Positions 52,931-64,000 of a DNA stretch of 64,000 nucleotides are shown piece after piece; position 1 is the first letter of the stretch; each line of letters begins with the position of its first letter. The stretch covers positions 1,550,001 to 1,614,000 of the forward strand of contig NC_060027.1 of the NCBI RefSeq assembly GCF_021134715.1, read 5' to 3'. A model generated the notes under the pieces. That model had not been told where the DNA came from. It did not search any database and saw only the letters and a program-made list of their open reading frames with translations. A program made the translations under genes and the position numbers. This stretch comes from Daphnia pulex. Taxonomy: Eukaryota; Arthropoda; Branchiopoda; Diplostraca; Daphniidae.

Positions 52931-55900
52931 ATGATTAGTCCTACACGATGCCAACCCCTGAAAAATTTCCCACTCTACTACCCATTTGGAAGCACTCGAG
53001 TTCTAAACGTTCTGAAAGATTTCAAAGATCAAAGCTTTGGTGAGAAGACTAACAGTAAAAGTACTCAGGTATTTGTTTAACATGCTTTTAGTTTTAGTGT
53101 GATCTTAGTCTTACCATGTTGACCATAATTAATTTATCTAGGTTCTCTTTCTTGGATCTGGGGACATGAGGGAAACTCTTCAGGCAACAACAGCTGAGCA
53201 TGTCAACAATCTTCACTTCCATCTTAATGATAATTGTCCATCAATTGTGGCTCGCAACATCATGATCTTGAAAATTCTGTCAGCTCAAGGTTTTGATCCC
53301 AATAAGGAAGAAGATTTCAGCTTTCTGTGGGATGTTTGGTATAATACCGAGTGGCCAGAGATCACTAGAAAACGATTTCTCATTGTTTTAAATGATCTGT
53401 TGGATGAGAAGTTACCAGAAAATGTCCTTGTTCCTGATCCAAATCATTACAAAAGTCTGAAGGAAATCTGGAAAGTTTGGCACACTATTTCTTCAAGAAG
53501 CCAATCAGAATCTGAAACGCTGTTGTGTGAAGCCAAGAAAAAGAGGTAACTCAATTTCCATTACATTCTTCAACTTTTATCTAAATTGAAAATATTTACA
53601 TTCTAGATCTGAACTTCTTGTGACATCACACGAATTAACCGTGGTCTCCCCTCGGAATTCAGATGAAAAAATAACCCATGCCAAAGCTTATTCAAGAGCA
53701 GTAAACGAGATCACCCAGTATGTAATGAAGCAAAATGCGATTGGAGACCTGAAAGACTCTGTGGGGCGGATAATTGAGCAGGAATTTCAAGCGTTTTACA
53801 AAAGAGGCACCTGCCGAATCAAAAATGCATTGAAAACGGTGTGTATAAATCCGACGTTTCTAAATCCTGACACTGAGCAATGGCAAGTCGACTACTCATT
53901 GTGCCCTTTCCTTGGCTATCTTCCATTATCGCAAGAAGAACTAATAACGTCAGTCAAAAACAAAATTCTTCTACCCACCTGCCAAAAAATTCTGAAAAAC
54001 ACAGTGGATTCCTACCGAAGTCGTGTTGCAGACATCCAAGTATTTTTCCACTTAGAAGATGCCCTGGAATTTTGTTTCACGGACGCAAACAAGTTTGACG
54101 TCATCGACTGTTCTAACCTCGTAGATCGTGTCGGACTTGCCAATATCCTCAACGCTGCAAGTGGAAAATTGTCGAATAATCCGGGAGCCATTTTGTTTAC
54201 TGTAAGTAGGGGTTGGGCTGAATTCACTCCTACTGTAGAGATGTACGTCGAGCATGTTCTTTGCTGCCCTTTGAGGATGATCCCCACAATTTATGGATTA
54301 AAACTGAATGAGCACGTGGAACTTGGATCTCGGTGTCCCCCCAGTTTGCATTTTGCCGTCCCGGCAAACCTTTCCTGGCAGAAAGCAATTCCTTTTCAGA
54401 ACATTGTTATGTCTCCTTCCCCCTCTTTGACGGATTTTTTGAACAAGCTGGCCCAGAAATGTTTCGTTGTCGAGTGCTTTCCAAACCCCAGTCAGGTTTT
54501 AAGTTATCGAATGGCGTTGTTAGAGAGGCATCATTTCTCTCCGTTAACATTTCACTACATCGTCAGCTCCATGAATCAGCGCCTTGGAGGAGATGACTGG
54601 ATTAAAGATGCTCACCTATTGGATACTTCTCCCCTTTTCAACATGACAAGACGTACATTGGATGCCTGGGAAAAGGGCCTGGAAATTTTGAAGATAACAG
54701 CAGAAATCCCTATCAACTCTATTAATAGAGATGTATTAAAGGTTTTGATTCCGCAATTGGGTTTAGCTACTTTTCGCTTGGTTCTCATGCCTTGTAGTGC
54801 GATAACCAGCAATTTTGTTCACGGAATTCTTCGAGAGTATAGACAAATCACTTTTTCCTATTCGAGGGAATCTTACGTCATCGAAAATTTTTCTCTAGAG
54901 ATGAAAGAAAAAAGCGAGAAAATTGTTGCTACCTTTTTAATTGCGTCTGATCACAACCTTCCTGAAGTGTACTGTGTATACGTGATTGAAAGTGCGAATC
55001 ATCTTCCTGTGCTCAGTTTCGGTTCTCTGAAATCCATGCACACTGAAAAGTTTCATCTTCATTACCCGTTTTCTCGTCCAACACCTTCCCCTGTTGTTGT
55101 TCCCCGTCCTGGGGAATCGTCAATAAAAGTCACCAGCTGTATCGAGTCCGAGAATGAATTTAAACTGAAGATAATTTTCGATTGTCACCAAAATGTTTCA
55201 GGTAAACTTTTTGGTTTTATTCCTAAGTTAAGAGTTAAAATTTCTTTTTCATTTGATTTCAGGACTAACACTTTCCACAGACCAATCGGAACCTTGCCAG
55301 TCTGCCCATCAAGTGACTCTCTCTCTAAACCAGCCTTCTAAGAGGAATTCTTTGACGTTGTCATTTCCTTATCCTATTCTTGTCCCCGGACTCTGCGGTA
55401 CTCTTCGTCTTAAAAAAAATTTTAGTGAACTTAAATTGAAGAAAGGATGGTGGGATCCGTGGCCAGTTGAGTTCCAGTCGAACGAAGAATCGAAATTGAA
55501 TATTGATTCTTTGAAACCTTGGGAAAATCATGCGAGCCGTTCCATTTCGGAAATTGGCTGCACCGCCTTGGATTTCCATCTCAATCTGCAATTTAACTTG
55601 GATTTTAAATTGAATGATCCAAGGCCAAAAGATGTATCTCGGGTTATAGAACCTTCCCACTGGAATTTGAGGGCTGAGCAACGGAACGAGAAAGAAGCTT
55701 TACAATCTCTCCGGAAAAGGTTCAGTTCGCTTCTTCATCACAAACTCGATTTTTTTGGCATTCAATCACCTGGATCGTTAACTACGGATTGGTGCATCAT
55801 GGCTTTAATCCACAAGCCCCTTCTCACATCTCCTCTGGGCAGTCCGGTTCTATTGTTGACTGTGATTGACAAACAGATGGCTAATATCCTTAAGAAACAA

Positions 55901-56314
55901 GGGAAATTAAACGAGGAGACATATACGAAGGAACAATCAAGAGCGATGAAGAGTGTGTCAGGGAAATCGGGAGAAATTTTCTATGTTGAACCCTCCGAAT
56001 TGTTGCTATGGAACTTGATTTTGAGACTCAACTCGACTAAAATCGTGCCTGGTTCAGAGCAAACAAGACTCCTTCCTTCGGGAATGAACAGCTCTTGGTT
56101 GTTTGCTACGTTTATGACTCCCCTTTACGTCGATGCTCCTGTTTATTACAATGACGTCCACACGACAACTACCGACGAAAATTGCTGTGGAGCTTGCAAA
56201 AAAGTCCCCCAAAATCCGAAGCGTTGCGGTCGCTGCCGTTCCATCGTTTATTGCAGTTTCGAGTGTCAACATTCTCATTGGCCAATGCACAAACTGCTGT
56301 GTAAGCGCAACTAG
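52931..56314 (+). CDS. DUF4470-like and MYND zinc-finger protein (1062 aa)
   Basis: Four exons: 52931-53068, 53142-53545, 53607-55201 and 55263-56314 (3189 nt), with phases 0, 2 and 1 all consistent. The N-terminus reads LKNFPLYYPFG, then exon 2 starts VLFLGSGDMRETLQ and NNLHFHLNDNCPSIVARNIM. This is the Gly-Ser-Gly-Asp pattern I associate with the DUF4470 domain shared with dynein-assembly factor DNAAF3 and with MYND proteins; no search was possible. The long middle (about residues 180-1000) has no recognised domain. The C-terminus is a MYND finger, CCGACKKVPQNPKRCGRC then VYCSFECQHSHWPMHKLLC, with the C-x2-C, C-x2-C, C-x3-C, H-x3-C spacing. MYND fingers bind PxLxP-type peptides. The start at the ATG after poly-A is the first in frame. 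Confidence 0.8.
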
Positions 56315-57300
56315 TAAAAACAAACCAGCACATCCCAAGTCCGTTCTTGTTCAATTTTTCATTGTTAATTATGCGGTAAATTTAATTGTTCATACCACAA
56401 TCTTATTGGAATGTTGATAAGCAAGTATTTTTTTGTTGCCGACTGTTGTTTGTTTTTTCTGTTTTTTTGTAATCGGTATAAATTGTTGTATTCAGAGTAA
56501 AATCTTCAGTCAGAAAAAGAATCTTATGGTTACAGTACTGTAAGTTTGATATATCCGAACTCCAACACGCGGCAACAGCAACAGTGACCCTACTTTTTCC
56601 ATGAGTAAGAATATAGTCTGGAAAAACGTTGCACAACTTAGTTAAATACAGTAAATCAGATAATTTTCCTCAAGTTGATAATGTTTATAATTCTCATTGT
56701 TGAGAGAAGAAGGAAGACCTCTCGTTATCCTAATGCTAATCGTCTTGTGAAATTCAAAGAAAATCAGCATTTCTGATTATAAAATGAAATGGGTGATTAG
56801 ATTTTCATTTTTAGGCTATATTTTTAGAAACTATTTTTTTTTAAATCGTATCAAATTGTTTCACTTATTTTCGTAGATTGTATTTAATAATAATCTAATA
56901 GCTTTAAACTCTGTGTCTGTGTAATAATTTCTAAATCAGGCCCTTTTTGCGAGTCGCAAACGAACTCACTGTTCCTTGTGCGTTTCTTTTGGCTAACGAT
57001 GGCTTTATTTTTCAGCCACTTTGCACATCCTGTAAAAATGTATCGGCAGTTTTGTGTGGTAATTTCTTGGTGATGACTGACGATAACTATTCCACCAACA
57101 AAGATCACTTGTTAATTGTTTGATAATTGTTTTTTTCCCTACTAAATCTATTTCACGGAGATGACGAACATTTTTGGTTTATATTTTCGTTTTCCGTCCC
57201 ACTATCGTCCGTGGATTGTAAGGGCTGTCACTAGGTGGCTAAATATTTCAATGTGTTTAGGGATTGAACTATTCAGCCCTAGTGTGTAGAGGGATGTACT
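56315..57300. other. Intergenic, no gene seen
   Basis: AT-rich 3' flank of the MYND gene. Several short minus-strand frames are without features. A nine-base poly-G lies at 57304 just beyond it. Confidence 0.4.
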
Positions 57301-57339
57301 GGAGGGGGGGGGGTCACCACAGTTTTGAGACGAGAAACC

Positions 57340-58920
57340 ATTTGTCGTTCTTTTATTTCCGAGACGCTGACCGATAAGGTTACTTCAGTCATTACTGCTG
57401 GGTACATTCATTCCTGAAATTGTTCTTCATAAAAAAAGGTAATTCCTACTCTAATTCTTAATGTTTTCTACGGTCAATTTACGGGTAGCATGGCCTTAAA
57501 TTTATATTAGCCAATTCAATGTGGCCATGCTTGTTGTACACTTGTTTAAAATGTCGTCTCTTGCTGAGTGTTGCACGCTTCGTCATGTCAAAGTACTTTA
57601 GAACAGTACAAGTAATAATGTAGAGTAACTTAATGGTCCTATGACTGTTTCCACATTAAAATTCTGTGATGAGGTTTCTGATAGAAAATTGCGCTGTTTT
57701 ATTAACAATTATCAATAATTAGTAAACTAAAGTTACATGTCATTGCAAATATTTTCTGTGATTTGTTATGTGAATTTTTTTGATTGAGAGATGCCCTTGA
57801 ATTGAGCTTGAGAAGATATGAACTTTCATTAAAAATGATTTGAAAAGTGTCAATAACTAATCTAATTTATTTTGTGACAGGTTGGTGGAGATTGTTCTCG
57901 ATGTGGAATGCCAAATCAACAAGATGAGATACCAAGCCTCTGTGAAGAGGCCTCTACCATGTTGCGTTAAGAAAATGTGCACACTAGGCAAGCTGAAATG
58001 GTAACATCTACTTGTAATATGACAACTTCAGTGGGTTAGCATCTTGTTAAATTTTAGTCCATTTGTGTTCTTTGTTCAGAATTTACTCGAGTTGGGCCTA
58101 AAATTCATGATTTAGAAGCAATTTGACAACTACCAACTGTTTCAAATAAGCATTTGTGAAAAAATTTTGATCACCTTGGGAAGAGTTACATTTTGGTTTA
58201 TTTGAGAATTTTTATATAACAGCTAAAATTATCCATTTTATATTTTTGAAATTTTATTGGTTTATTAATGTACTTTTGGCTCTTGCTTTGCAGGTTTCAT
58301 TGGTTAGAGAAAGTTTGAGCTGTTCATGGTTGTGATGTTTGGTGTGGCAGTCATTTTCTGATTGAGACGTGCACTGAAATGGATCTTCTACAGACTTGCG
58401 TGTTGTTTCAACATCATATTTCCATTTACCATGTTGGTGTCCATGCAGAGTTGAGCTGTTGTGCAAAATAACAGGTGTTGCCTCATGGCTTTCTGGTAAT
58501 TTGTTGGTGTGTTCTTCTGCTACCTGTATCTATGTTGAGGTAATGCTGGATGAAAAGTTTTATTCAATTAATAACTAATTCTCTATTCTCGTTTCAGTTC
58601 AATCGAACGGCGCCGTTCCGGACTTGATCCATTGGTGAAGCTAAGAAAATGCTGAACTTCAAGAGATTGATAAATTATTTAGTCTTAGAGATTTTCAAAT
58701 TCATTTCTCTTCTCTCTTTCCCCAAGTAAACAAAATTTCCTCTTAGGTAGTTGTGTGGATGGGTAATTGCAATGAGATTATATATTTTCTGTGAGAAAGC
58801 TCAGTTAAACTTAAAACCATAAAAATCTTGTGTACTGATAAATTTACATCTACCATAACAAACCTGAAATAATCAAAAATACCACCTTGTTATAAAATAA
58901 TAAAATTATTGAAATCAAAA
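57340..58920 (+). ncRNA. Candidate spliced long non-coding RNA
   Basis: Three segments have strong acceptor and donor pairs in the same orientation. These are 57881-57999 (TTTTGTGACAG | ... ATG | GTAACA), 58294-58539 (TTGCTTTGCAG | ... GAG | GTAATG) and 58598 onwards (TCTCGTTTCAG | ...). A possible first exon ends in AAAAAAAG | GTAATT at about 57438. An AATAAA (in AATAATAAAATTATT) at about 58906 could be the polyadenylation signal. The exons contain stops in all frames; the longest start-to-stop frame in exon 2 is about 20 codons (MPNQQDEIPSLCEEAS...). Splice signals support transcription, but coding potential is poor. A decayed gene is the main alternative. Confidence 0.35.
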
Positions 58921-59496
58921 CTACTGACTACATTTTTTTTAATCATGAAACCATTATACAAATAAAATTTTTCCCAAAAATTATTTTACAACGAAATAAT
59001 CCATATATCCAGCCCAAATTTTTATTAAATTTTAAAATTTGCTTAAAACAACCACCATATATTATTTTACTAAGTCTTTTTCGCAAAAAATTGGCGATGT
59101 CCATTTATCCCATGTTTTTTTTGTTTACAAAATTAAAAACAATTTTTCTTATTTTACAATTTTTATTTATTTTAACATAATCACATATATATTTTATGGC
59201 CCCCAGGGAGGGGGGGGCCTGTGACTTTCCCAACCGCGATAATAACATGTGCCGTTATTATTTTGTTGGTGCGGAAAGCCGGAATTTTATCTAGCAGTTG
59301 TCGACTGTATCAAAACTGACATAGAATCAGTTTGCCACAATCGTATACTGCCCAAGTAAAAACGCAAAAGACGACAGATGAAACCAATTCAAGTCAGAAA
59401 CTCACTGGCAGAGCAAAACCACAAGTAAAAGGGAATAAGAATATTTCAAATCAGCACCACGGATACCACTAAAGCAAAAAACACAAATGAAAGCAG
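58921..59496. other. AT-rich intergenic, no gene seen
   Basis: Very AT-rich, with a CCCCCAGGGAGGGGGGGG patch at about 59201-59218. Nothing else identified. Confidence 0.45.
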
Positions 59497-60007
59497 TTAA
59501 AATAATGAAGTCAGCAAATTAGACAAATTCTGGCTCAGCTGCTTCGGAATAACTCCAGCACAGCTACTTCTGGATAACACTGGCACCACATCCTGCATAC
59601 AACGGTTGGTTTTCTTCATCACACCTTTCACCATCTGGCTGCAGCGTGCAGCGTGGTTGTTGGACCTATTGAAGAAAATAAAAAAATTACCATCAGGAAA
59701 CACAAGTTAACTGGACTCTTACGACAAAAGATAAGGAGTAAGACCAAACAGAATAGCTTTGATTTCTGCAATTTTTGCGAAAGAAGTAATAGTTGGAAAG
59801 GTATTCAAATTTCTACAGTAGCAAAGCAAATTGATCTCTAGTAGTAGTAGTAAATAGTTGTAGGAAATCTGAAAAAAATAATTACTTTTGCTGTTGCATG
59901 GGATGAGACGTACGACTGGGTACAGGCAGCGAGACACACGAGGCACGACATTTCGGCAAATGTACAGGCATTTTCAATTCAGATGGCAAAGTGGTAAGAT
60001 CAATCAC
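59497..60007 (-). CDS. 3' exons of an unrecognised gene, or gene fragment
   Basis: Two minus-strand exons agree in phase: 59886-60007 (acceptor AATTTTCAG, donor AAAA | GTAATT) and 59497-59665 (acceptor CTTCAATAG). Together they read VIDLTTLPSELKMPVHLPKC, then CVSLPVPSRTSHPMQQQKSN, RCSQMVKGVMKKTNRCMQDV and SRSSCAGVIPKQLSQ, ending in a stop at 59497. The piece before, near 60008-60090, has a donor-like AAAAG | GTATTT, but a stop soon appears upstream in the frame that fits. The gene therefore either has more exons or is broken. No family is recognised. Confidence 0.42.
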
Positions 60008-60089
60008 CTGAAAATTGACACATCGAGATTTTACATTCCATTAACCTAATTAATTGACAAGAAATACCTTTTCATTTTGGGAAACGTCA

Positions 60090-60614
60090 CGACCGGCTTC
60101 TCACTTCTGCTACGTCAAGGAACAAAATGGTCGAACTGGGGCCTTGAGGACACTCGCCCCACCTGGTGGACATCAATTGGATTGCTTGCTTGCTGACAGC
60201 ACGCAGCAGCTAAACTTGAATTCTTCACGCCTTTCACTAAGTGGCACAAAATGAATCAAGTGAGGATGAATACCAGATTACTCAAACAGCTTTCCCTATG
60301 AGACAACACACAAATTATTAACTTGGCTATTTCCGATCATTTTCCGTAACTTATTCAACATAAAAATCTATAATAGTAACAAAAAGTATGGGGGTTTAAG
60401 ACAACAGATAATAATATTAAAATGAAAAGACAGTTAAAAATTATTGGAGTTCTATTGTCGCGATACAGCCAATTAGTTCTAAAATTTAAGTAACTTACCA
60501 ACATTATTTAAGTGAAATGAAAATGTACTTGATTTTGGTTGACCAGCAGTATAAGCCGTTACAAATTATTATAAGAGAAGCTTAGGTGGAGTGGATCGCT
60601 GATTTCGTTTTTCT
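60090..60614. other. Intergenic, no gene seen
   Basis: AT-rich 3' flank of the receptor gene. No polyadenylation signal could be fixed with confidence, and I see no RNA gene. Confidence 0.4.
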
Positions 60615-63600
60615 CTACACTCTAGTCACATTATTGTCACTCGGCAAAATTTGATAATAGCAATTATTTTGCGATGCAAGGTAGATTTCGCTACATGCAA
60701 GCTGCTTAGACGACAGATCGTTTACAAGTTGAGCTTCTCTTTCCTTTCGGACTTTACGCGCGCTTACTCCGGCGTCCGAATGGTAATAGGAAACGGTGGT
60801 GAACTTCAGAGGAACTTGTTGCTGAAAAATTGGAAATTTATTAAACCCCATTGGTTTTGTTTTTAACTGAATTTGTAAACTTACGTCTGGCAAAATATTT
60901 TCGATGATTTCAGCGAAGGTGGGTCGTTTATTCGGTTGAAACTGCCAACAGCTTTCCATAAGATTAAACAGTCTGTCTGGGCAACCTTCCGGCCGTTGCA
61001 AAACTCCGCCAGCCTTCACGTACTCGAGAACCTGGTCATTAGTCAAATCCTGATGGGGATGCGATGCGAGAGTTGCTATTTCCCACAACACGACGCCAAA
61101 ACTCCAGACATCACATTGGGAGGTATAGAAAACATCACATAGTGACTCGGGTGCCATCCATCGAATGGGAAGGAGCTCAATTTCTTCGTTCATTTTGTAA
61201 TAACCTTCTTCAGAAATTTCTCTTGTCAACCTAAAACCGCCAATCTTGACGGTAAGATCACTGGCCACCATGCAATCTTGTGCAATCAAACTGCGATGGA
61301 CGTACTTGTTTTCCGACAGGTACATCATGCCATCGGCAATTTCGATCGCCATCTTCAACATGGACTGAAATTATTCAACGAAATTCATTAGACAATGAAG
61401 ATTATAAGAGGATGGTCTAGCTAATACCTTAAGGGTAAGCGGTTGACGACCTTTACTGGCGTATTCTTCGTGATCGGGACGATGGGAACGTAAAAAGGAT
61501 TTCAAGTCTCCATTATCCATTAACTCCATGATGATCAACATCGGCTGGTTTACAGTGACGACTCCCAAAAGTTGAACGACGTGGTGAGCGTTCAAGTTCC
61601 TATGGTAATTGCATCAAATGTTATCTAAAAATAAATACAGTTGAAATTAAATGACAGTTTAGTTATTACTTGATGACAATATTTTCTTCTTCAAGTAATT
61701 CAATGTGCTCCTTGACGATGGCTCTTGGAATGACCATTTTAACGGCACATTTGACTTCCGGCTGTTTGGGCACTGTGTTACGCAACAGGCCCTCGTAGAG
61801 AATACCGAAAGAGCCATTACCCATTTCACGGATAAAGACGACATTATCTCGTGCTACTTCCCATTCTTTGGGGACTTTTTCTATAACCAATCAGAATTGT
61901 GATTACAAAAATTACGAAAATACAATAAACAATTTTAAATTACTGCGATGATCTCGATTTCCTAAGACAGTTCCGTAGTTTTTCCTGGTCTTTTTGTGCT
62001 TTACCAAGTATCGAATGACAAAACCCAACAATATTAATACAAAACTGACGAGGATAAATATGCCGGATATCAAACCAAGGTCAAATCCGTTAACATTTCC
62101 CTGTTTGTTAACAAATGACGCTGGGAATTAAAAGTAAATTTTTGACAATGAGAGAAAATAAAACACACCTCGATAAGGAAGCAAAATTCCTTCGTAGGTT
62201 TTCCTGTTCCGGCCAATGAAACCGCTCGAACTTGAACGCAATAGTTGCCCGGTAATAGATCGGTCATTATTTTAGTCCTTTGGCTATTTTCAAAGTCCTT
62301 CCGGCGAATGCATTCTTTAACAATTTGGTCCTTTAAGAGACATGTTGATAAATATATTATTCGACCTCATAAAAATATAATAAGACTTGCGTTGTCTGAT
62401 CGTCTGTACTCCAGTAGATATTTTATAACAAGTCCGTTGGGATCCTCCGGTTCATGCCAACCGATTTTTATTGATGGAGACGTGTAATTCGATTCGTATC
62501 TCACTATCCCACCAACGATATCATCCTCAAAATCTGTTTCAAATAGAAAAGCCAAAATTAACAAGTAATTCACGGTAATGATGTGCGAATTAAAACATAC
62601 CACTCTTTTTGGTGCGAGTGGAAGTCATAGCAGCTGTCGTACTACATAGGGTACTATTCCTGACGGGATCGTGATCATGACAAGCCATCACCTGTATGGT
62701 ATATTCGGCGTAGTGTCGTACACCGACCACAGTGTAACTCGTACCCGTCACTTTTTGATAAAAAGGGATCAACCGATTATTGCCATCGTACATGTTCGAA
62801 TGATTTTCAACGGGAGCAATTTCAATTGCTTGATTGTCGATATTTACACTGTATATAAAACAAATTATTCATTATATTTCCATTACCAGAAAAGAAAGAA
62901 AAAGAGACTTACATCGGGTCTTTGATATAGATTTTATCATGGAGATAGTTTTTGAAATCCGTTTTGAATATTTGTTCCCTTTCCAATTTTTCTTTCGATT
63001 TGGGTTCTAAAACCTTTGGTTTCTTATTATTGTCGCTCAGTGAAAGAACAGCATCTATTAAAAATTTTAAAAAATTTAACCGAATTCAACCAATTGTACG
63101 GCAGCGAAAATGTTTACGTTCAGCGCAAGCATCGAGACTGTGATAATAGTCTTGGTCGTCTTTACGCCAACTGCCAGTGACGATGTAATGCGTCACAATC
63201 CCGTTTGGATTAATCGGGGGTTTCCATTCTATAACGAGTTCGGAGCTAGAGTTGGCAGAAGCTCTTAAATCTTCTGGCTGATCTGGTTCTATAAGAAAAT
63301 GAAAACAAACATGTAAGAATCAACATAAAGCAAAAAAAAAAACTTATGACTTATTTACCTGCTGGACTTGTTCTTTCGTACAAAATTGGACTACGGGCAC
63401 CTACCCGTTTGCCCATTTGTTGCAGTGCGACTGTATACGTTTGGACGTAAATGGCGTACTGAGTGTAAGGCTTGAGATAAGTAATAAGGTGCATATGATT
63501 TTCGTCAGAATCAGCATCAAGATTAGCAGCTACATTGTTGACCCTCCACCTTTAAAAAAGGCATTTTAATGAATATCAAGACTACGCAGTAAAAACCACA

Positions 63601-64000
63601 AAAACTTACCCGTCACCACCACAAGCGTCACGTCCATCGTAATAAGAGACATTTGCAAAAGGAGCCTCGATATAAGAAATAATATAGCCCAGCAATTGGC
63701 GTTTATCATCTAACATAGCTCTGAAATTGTCCCAACTCAACAGCATTCCAACAGAGGACTTGTTAACAATAGTGACGTTGAGAACTTGTTCGTCACACGT
63801 CGCCTTATCGCCATTGGACCAAGGTGAAATGTCCACGTCCGAGTGCTTAAACGCCAAAGTTCCTGGAACGGTACTGGAGTTGACGAGCTCTTCGATTAAA
63901 TTCAAACACAACTTGGGATTGAAATGGAACAACATCTTTTTATAGATTGTCAAATTCTGCGTCTTGGGCCACAGCTGCTGCAAATTTTGATTGTCCTGAA
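60615..64000 (-). CDS. InR: Insulin-receptor-like protein with inactivated kinase domain (5' end beyond window)
   Basis: Exons: 63610->64000, 63359-63549, about 63115-63288, 62913-63054, 62601-62848, 62391-62533, 62169-62330, 61944-62100, 61670-61880, 61428-61599, 60885-61364 and 60615-60821. The window edge begins in the second L domain ([29 protein letters not shown]). FnIII domains with [46 protein letters not shown] and [19 protein letters not shown] follow. Then come a TM helix ([20 protein letters not shown]) and a kinase domain. GNGSFG, the AVK lysine, [23 protein letters not shown] and [12 protein letters not shown] are intact. However the catalytic loop is [12 protein letters not shown] (HRD Asp lost) and the DFG motif is GGFRLTR (Asp and Gly lost). 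One activation-loop Tyr is missing (SEEGYY). No NPxY is seen before the kinase domain. The tail after the kinase is short (about 68 residues). The family is certain; I infer a non-signalling or decoy/heterodimer role. Confidence 0.93.

Follow-up and report, generated by a model that had tools for sequence, protein, structure and literature searches.

What does an insulin receptor do once its kinase domain has lost the residues needed for catalysis? The window analyzed here, a 64,000-nucleotide stretch of Daphnia pulex DNA, ends within a gene that raises this question. The initial annotation, made from the letters alone, described a pseudokinase belonging to a protein with a receptor ectodomain. 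This description was borne out, and the gene is already in print as Dappu_InR-4; the pseudokinase itself has been known since 2010, when its lost catalytic site was reported. The anatomy added below makes the 2010 question, namely the purpose of InR-4, directly testable.

The coding sequence of the gene lies on the minus strand and runs from window-equivalent position 66260 to a stop codon at 60617..60615, in 20 exons separated by 19 introns; the 5' 2.26 kb, past the end of the window, were taken from the same contig. Although the annotation had confined it to 60615..61880, an interval that does cover kinase exons 17-20, the gene does not end at 61880 and reaches 66260. It spans 5646 bp and, in this gene model, encodes a product of ~1371 aa consisting of a hydrophobic N-terminal segment (recognized by eye), L1, a Cys-rich region, L2, FnIII repeats, a transmembrane (TM) segment (by eye), a tyrosine kinase and a short tail, which follows the insulin receptor family order of L1, Cys-rich, L2, FnIII, TM and tyrosine kinase. 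Pfam identified Recep_L (2), Furin-like, fn3 (2) and PK_Tyr_Ser-Thr (E 4e-80) domains, and the closest solved structures to the kinase were those of IGF1R and the insulin receptor, with the best E value of 9.4e-102 for IGF1R. Splice sites are GT-AG or GC-AG throughout. The introns between exons 17-20 (61600-61669, 61365-61427 and 60822-60884) are all GT/AG, and the claim of a clean reading frame with intact splice sites held over these exons down to the stop codon.

Both published InR-4 qPCR primers match this gene with 0 mismatches, at 62295-62318 and 62200-62230. Against its two closest relatives, paralogues A and B, the forward primer shows 2 mismatches and 1 mismatch, respectively, and neither gene offers the reverse primer a site at up to 5 mismatches. 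The available text of Boucher et al. 2010 (PMC2978223) states that only the InR-4 primers were not located in unique exons, and describes Dappu_InR-4 with 19 introns, 5595 bp and 1313 aa. The number of introns is 19 in both descriptions and the span is ~5.6 kb in both, while the lengths of 1371 aa and 1313 aa represent two gene models of one locus. Based on the exact primer match, the intron number and the span, the window gene is therefore Dappu_InR-4 (hereafter InR-4). Its in-window features are as follows.

60615..60821, minus strand: exon 20, a 68-aa C-terminal tail followed by the stop codon.
60885..61364, minus strand: exon 19, catalytic loop, activation loop and C-lobe.
61428..61599, minus strand: exon 18, kinase hinge and aD region.
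61670..61880, minus strand: exon 17, kinase N-lobe (GNGSFG, AVK, aC Glu).
61944..62100, minus strand: exon 16, TM (by eye) and juxtamembrane region, with GNRDHR against INPDYH in the paralogues.
62169..62330, minus strand: exon 15, second half of FnIII-3, holding both InR-4 qPCR primer sites.
62391..62533, minus strand: exon 14, first half of FnIII-3, with a GC donor.
62601..62848, minus strand: exon 13, insert domain plus FnIII; lacks the GRKKR segment of A and B and keeps the splice acceptor.
62913..63054, minus strand: exon 12, insert domain; an alpha-CT-like segment is kept, the KCCQC segment of A and B is missing.
63118..63288, minus strand: exon 11, FnIII-2; its donor corresponds by homology to the one in A and B, and use of an alternative donor at 63091 would lengthen the product by 9 aa.
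63359..63549, minus strand: exon 10, FnIII-1/2.
63610..64000 in the window, continuing to 64014, minus strand: exon 9, end of L2 and FnIII-1.
63147..64000, no strand: in-window part of the gene-conversion tract with B, the whole tract running from 65159 to 63147.

The exon 14 donor, at window 62391, reads GACAAC/gcaagtct, with GT at this position in A and B. Exon 16 (61944-62100) encodes an evident TM, contrary to the 2010 Discussion, which granted a beta-subunit TM to InR-2 only (PMC2978223). The adjoining gene at window 53590-56314, on the plus strand, has a C-terminal Cys/His-rich segment (CCGACKKVPQNPKRCGRCRSIVYCSFECQHSHWPMHKLLC), which we take to resemble a MYND-type zinc finger.

A whole-genome search with the kinase of paralogue A returned three insulin receptor kinase loci, i.e., InR-4, A and B, at 73-100% identity, the next among the matches listed being at 46%; a search with the FnIII stretch returned the same three loci and weak fragments. 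A and B lie in tandem, 0.57 Mb from InR-4.

C11:1032.3-1039.9 kb: paralogue A, kinase match at C11:1032.5 kb.
C11:1018.2-1025.8 kb: paralogue B, kinase match at C11:1018.4 kb.

Both carry HRD, ARN, DFG, YxxxYY, NPDY, RKKR, CCQC and long tails. They share the exon layout of InR-4, and parts of the ectodomains are up to 99% identical to it. When A and B were compared with each other, exons 1-8 were 98-100% and introns 1-8 94-100% identical, after which the two genes diverge; as read from these identities, the pattern is a second conversion or a duplication mosaic. Four D. pulex insulin receptors were counted by Boucher et al. in the portion of PMC2978223 available, and the higher number may stem from a draft model that was fused or duplicated. 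Near the start of C11, a degenerate fragment of an insulin receptor ectodomain, interrupted by in-frame stops, occurs twice as inverted copies, at ~40.7-41.9 kb (L023:3707-4888) and ~52.8-54.0 kb (L024:5499-4318); the 9-kb stretches searched there contained no match to the kinase. Four further candidate loci (L014-L017) matched only as other tyrosine kinases and were dropped.

The motif changes first noticed in the kinase, namely HRS for HRD, AQD for ARN and GFR for DFG, are all present in the sequence, together with the preserved Gly loop (GNGSFG), AVK Lys, APE and DVWSFG. With A, B and IGF1R as the reference, 13 of 19 canonical kinase positions are kept and six are changed: HRD Asp (to Ser), AAR Arg, RN Asn, DFG Asp (to Gly), DFG Gly and beta2 Val (to Leu). 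The aC Glu, the HRD His and Arg and the DFG Phe are retained; helix aC has a one-residue insertion relative to A, B and IGF1R, and in the activation loop the first Tyr is replaced by Ser with the YY pair kept. Under the sequence definition of a pseudokinase, in which the VAIK Lys, HRD Asp or DFG Asp is lost, InR-4 lacks both Asp residues and keeps the Lys. Phosphotransfer is very unlikely in a kinase from which the HRD Asp, the DFG Asp and the Asn are all absent, and InR-4 is, in all likelihood and as judged from these motifs, catalytically dead. An atypical kinase that is still active has a precedent in CASK, IRAK2 and HER3, which are described as keeping weak activity without DFG or HRD residues; we regard this as highly improbable for InR-4, in which the HRD Asp, the next Asn and the DFG Asp are replaced all together. 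For the catalytic exon alone, a structure prediction from three sequences reached a pLDDT of 38.9, too low to be informative.

Changes in the kinase extend beyond these motifs. Of the 174 sites invariant in A, B and IGF1R, after gapped alignment columns were skipped, 42 are changed in InR-4, distributed as 19/61 in the N-lobe, 3/25 in the hinge-aD-aE region, 14/44 from the catalytic loop to the activation segment and 6/44 in aF-aI. Statistical analysis indicated no significant enrichment of the catalytic positions among the sites altered in InR-4 (6/19 vs 42/174; P 0.29). Targeted loss of catalytic residues is thus unsupported as a statistical claim, and because the canonical positions are not enriched, the changes look as much like general relaxation as like targeted silencing.

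Further losses affect other parts of the receptor. The furin site (GRKKR in A and B) is absent from exon 13 and the insert-domain cysteine cluster (KCCQC in A and B) is absent from exon 12, with both exons keeping their splice acceptors and the reading frame despite the missing segments. The human receptor has both the furin site and the insert-domain cysteine cluster, and these elements were therefore lost in InR-4 and not gained in A and B. The juxtamembrane NPxY motif, NPDY in A and B, is replaced by GNRDH. The C-tail has 68 aa in comparison to 187 and 184 aa in the paralogues, although a few tail tyrosines remain, and window 56001-61000 yielded no significant similarity to the remainder of either paralogue tail. 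The TM segment and the alpha-CT-like segment are retained, as are cysteines of FnIII-2 and FnIII-3, which, from the human receptor, we take to be the alpha-beta pair.

The pattern of kept and lost residues bears on the idea that InR-4 is an allosteric partner similar to HER3 or STRAD, that is, a protein with an active-like fold and perhaps Mg-free ATP binding, which switches on an active insulin receptor, or is phosphorylated by it, in a hybrid. The combination of HRS and G-x-R is the one found in STRADalpha; the Gly loop, AVK Lys, aC Glu, HRD His and Arg, DFG Phe and YY are kept; the kinase omega (dN/dS, below) is well under 1; and few changes fall in hinge-aD-aE and aF-aI. However, the missing NPxY and the truncated tail speak against a docking role like that of HER3, the Asn position is occupied by Asp in contrast to a basic residue in STRADalpha, and the N-lobe ranks with the most heavily changed regions. 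We consider such a partner rather unlikely. As far as these motifs tell, a signalling scaffold of the HER3 type is less likely than a damping role, because the furin site, the insert-domain cysteines, NPDY and the C-tail have been lost.

To characterize selection on the kinase, a codon model was fitted to three sequences on three branches without an outgroup (282 codons, gapped columns excluded). It yielded an omega of 0.36 for InR-4 (codon bootstrap 0.21-0.61) in comparison to 0.12 in A and B, with lnL of -2214.83 for the two-ratio model, -2221.70 for one ratio and -2223.76 with InR-4 fixed at 1. A dN/dS near 1 had been named in the initial annotation as evidence against its reading; 0 of 100 bootstrap replicates were at 1 or above. 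For Fn3 (101 codons), omega was 0.61 for InR-4 vs 0.18 in A and B; an omega of 1 for InR-4 was not rejected, and the two-ratio gain was small (lnL -725.11 vs -727.31). In the TM/juxtamembrane region (51 codons), the InR-4 omega was at the bound and an omega of 1 was likewise not rejected. Positive selection in this exon was set aside in view of the omega at the bound, the 51 codons and a saturated dS. Tajima tests gave a chi2 of 20.8 for InR-4 vs A and 11.9 for InR-4 vs B. Finally, the lack of any stop in the 1917 coding nt outside the converted tract excludes a neutral distance of more than 0.037 substitutions per site at the 5% level, which corresponds to ~7% of the InR-4 branch (dS ~0.52, estimated by hand). 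This branch spans time before the losses, and its omega alone would be compatible with a short neutral tail.

The raised kinase omega, the two Tajima values, the missing segments in exons 12 and 13 and the single GC donor are what would be expected if InR-4 were on its way to becoming a pseudogene. We consider this very unlikely, given that the 1917 unconverted nt are free of stops, the splice sites are GT-AG or GC-AG, the frame remains open across the missing segments, and a truly degenerate insulin receptor copy elsewhere in the genome does show stops. In addition, the gene is expressed: ESTs of Dappu_InR-4 occur in 8 of 11 libraries (counted from Table 2) and RT-qPCR was reported in the sections of PMC2978223 available, although A or B may contribute to the EST counts in regions of high similarity among the genes. 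An already decayed pseudogene is also unlikely, as the gene model contains no stops, frameshifts or lost splice sites and the kinase omega is 0.36. By these codon comparisons, the InR-4 kinase is relaxed and in all likelihood not that of a pseudogene.

The ectodomain has a different history. Exon and intron identities, combined with a sliding comparison, revealed a sharp mosaic: InR-4 and B are 97.0% identical over 2005 columns (65159 to 63147) vs 69.0% over the other 3651, with 66.6% identity 3' of 63100, and for InR-4 and A the value is 97.3% over 1394 columns (65156 to 63763). Exon 9 encodes 135 aa that are identical to B. Of the six introns in the tract shared with B, three have 96-99% identity (99.3% over 272 bp, 96.0% over 99 bp and 97.1% over 68 bp) and the other three 81-91%, while the nine introns after exon 11 have 44-65% identity to B and 40-67% to A. 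InR-4 equals B at up to 31 consecutive polymorphic sites, against a permutation maximum of 9 (n=2000); the longest such run with A, at 6, is not outstanding (P 0.05). Between InR-4 and B, dS was lowest in the tract, at 0.06-0.12, and reached 0.24 in L1 and the first Cys-rich exon, 0.43 in Fn3 and 1.10 in the kinase. Given this contrast across regions, the divergence of InR-4 lies mainly outside the tract, and above all in the intracellular half. L1 and the first Cys-rich exon, which by comparison with the human receptor we take to include ligand-contact regions, are outside the tract, with a dN of 0.055 to B. These patterns demonstrate, at the level of sequence comparison, that ~2 kb of the InR-4 ectodomain was recently exchanged with the active paralogues by gene conversion, and that divergence of the intracellular half is old, with its reading frame still open.

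An assembly artefact was rejected as an explanation. It would not account for changes that are many, in frame and spread over exons, and the lost catalytic site is also found in the 2010 draft assembly; a single read set placed twice is at odds with a tract that is 97%, and not 100%, identical. The mosaic does have a practical consequence, in that ectodomain-based primers and read mapping can confuse InR-4, A and B. The published Dappu_InR1 forward primer (InR1F; window-equivalent 65055-65073) has no mismatch in InR-4, A or B, and the InR3F primer has 1 mismatch in InR-4 and 2 in B. Judged from these matches, earlier InR1 and InR3 expression data may be mixed across genes.

A further reading is that InR-4 has taken up another job, as an uncleaved, kinase-free receptor or an adhesion molecule outside the canonical pathway. 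The furin site and the insert cysteines have been lost on top of the catalytic site, the Fn3 omega is higher in InR-4 than in A and B (with the small two-ratio gain noted above), and a new function was also proposed by Boucher et al. (PMC2978223, available text). Nevertheless, there is no pointer to a particular other partner, and much of the ligand-binding half is nearly equal to that of the active receptors. We consider a job of this kind unlikely.

Based on the combined anatomy, we propose that InR-4 is a maintained, non-signalling receptor with ligand and dimer surfaces in common with those of its active sisters, which it damps, a reading to which we assign a probability of roughly 0.5 and whose mechanism we infer. 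The ectodomain is so similar to those of A and B that InR-4 would be expected to meet the same insulin-like peptides and to form hybrids with A or B; the near-identity of much of it to the active paralogues makes shared ligands and dimerisation plausible. The dominant-negative, decoy or allosteric partner suggested in the initial annotation is a candidate role. With phosphotransfer and docking sites predicted to be absent, such hybrids would be non-productive, or the protein would act as a ligand sink at the membrane, and InR-4 would thereby set a ceiling on insulin/IGF signalling. The remaining YY would at most be phosphorylated by the active partner in a hybrid. Uncleaved human proreceptors, as known from proreceptor mutants, bind insulin poorly, and by analogy InR-4 without its furin site may capture ligand or traffic less well. 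Loss of the CCQC cysteines may weaken covalent hybrids.

A more specific and tentative extension of the damping role assigns a part to the mosaic itself. Conversion over 0.57 Mb would keep the hormone-binding half of InR-4 like that of its active sisters, while catalysis, chain cleavage, docking and the tail, as outputs of the signalling half, could be lost freely, and the genome would in this manner retain an insulin receptor dedicated to a dominant-negative role, with an affinity that follows that of the active receptors. A conversion tract can arise neutrally, however, and is no proof of shared function. If this matched-pair reading is true, InR-4 is a possible tuner of Daphnia growth and predator-defence plasticity.

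In relation to published work, InR-4 was described by Boucher et al. (2010; PMC2978223) as lacking a catalytic site, having a long branch, being expressed and possibly having a new function, with dN/dS mostly <1. The gene analyzed here agrees with that description in the missing catalytic site, in a dN/dS <1 (of the kinase in our analysis, mostly in theirs) and in expression. The portion of PMC2978223 available makes no mention of the conversion mosaic or of the further losses, i.e., the furin site, insert cysteines, NPDY and tail. Among the matches listed in a search of the open-access literature on Daphnia insulin receptors, judged by title and start of abstract, none treats the mosaic or these losses, and Table 1 of a crustacean RTK study contains 0 branchiopod InsR sequences (PMC11024359, in part).

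One receptor comparable to InR-4 is HER3 (ErbB3), which likewise combines a full receptor architecture with a kinase that is dead or almost so, and which has active relatives. HER3 has a docking tail. It is described as keeping the DFG Asp and the catalytic-loop Asn, in contrast to InR-4, which lacks both as well as most of the tail. STRADalpha is a cytosolic Ste20-type protein, and its likeness to InR-4 is convergence, not kinship. As reported in the available text of PMC2686265, it resembles InR-4 in having HRS and a G-x-R (GLR) in place of DFG, it binds ATP without Mg via Arg215 and His200, and it maintains an active conformation; it also lacks the VAIK Lys and one Gly of the Gly loop, which InR-4 keeps. 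Non-signalling forms that retain the ligand-binding half are known as DAF-2B, Drosophila SDR and the insect decoy insulin receptors, as far as the accounts available describe them. InR-4 does not fit the secreted decoy type (SDR/DAF-2B; no TM, no kinase domain), as its TM exon 16 and kinase exons are present. By analogy, and on the partial accounts available, the nearest functional counterpart of InR-4 is nevertheless DAF-2B of C. elegans, which is described as trapping ligand without signalling and forming hybrids with full-length DAF-2. DAF-2B is a truncated, secreted splice form without an intracellular domain, whereas InR-4 is a separate gene with a TM and a kinase domain: a membrane-anchored receptor that has much of its hormone-binding half in common with two active sisters, without the cleavage site, catalytic residues, dock and tail.
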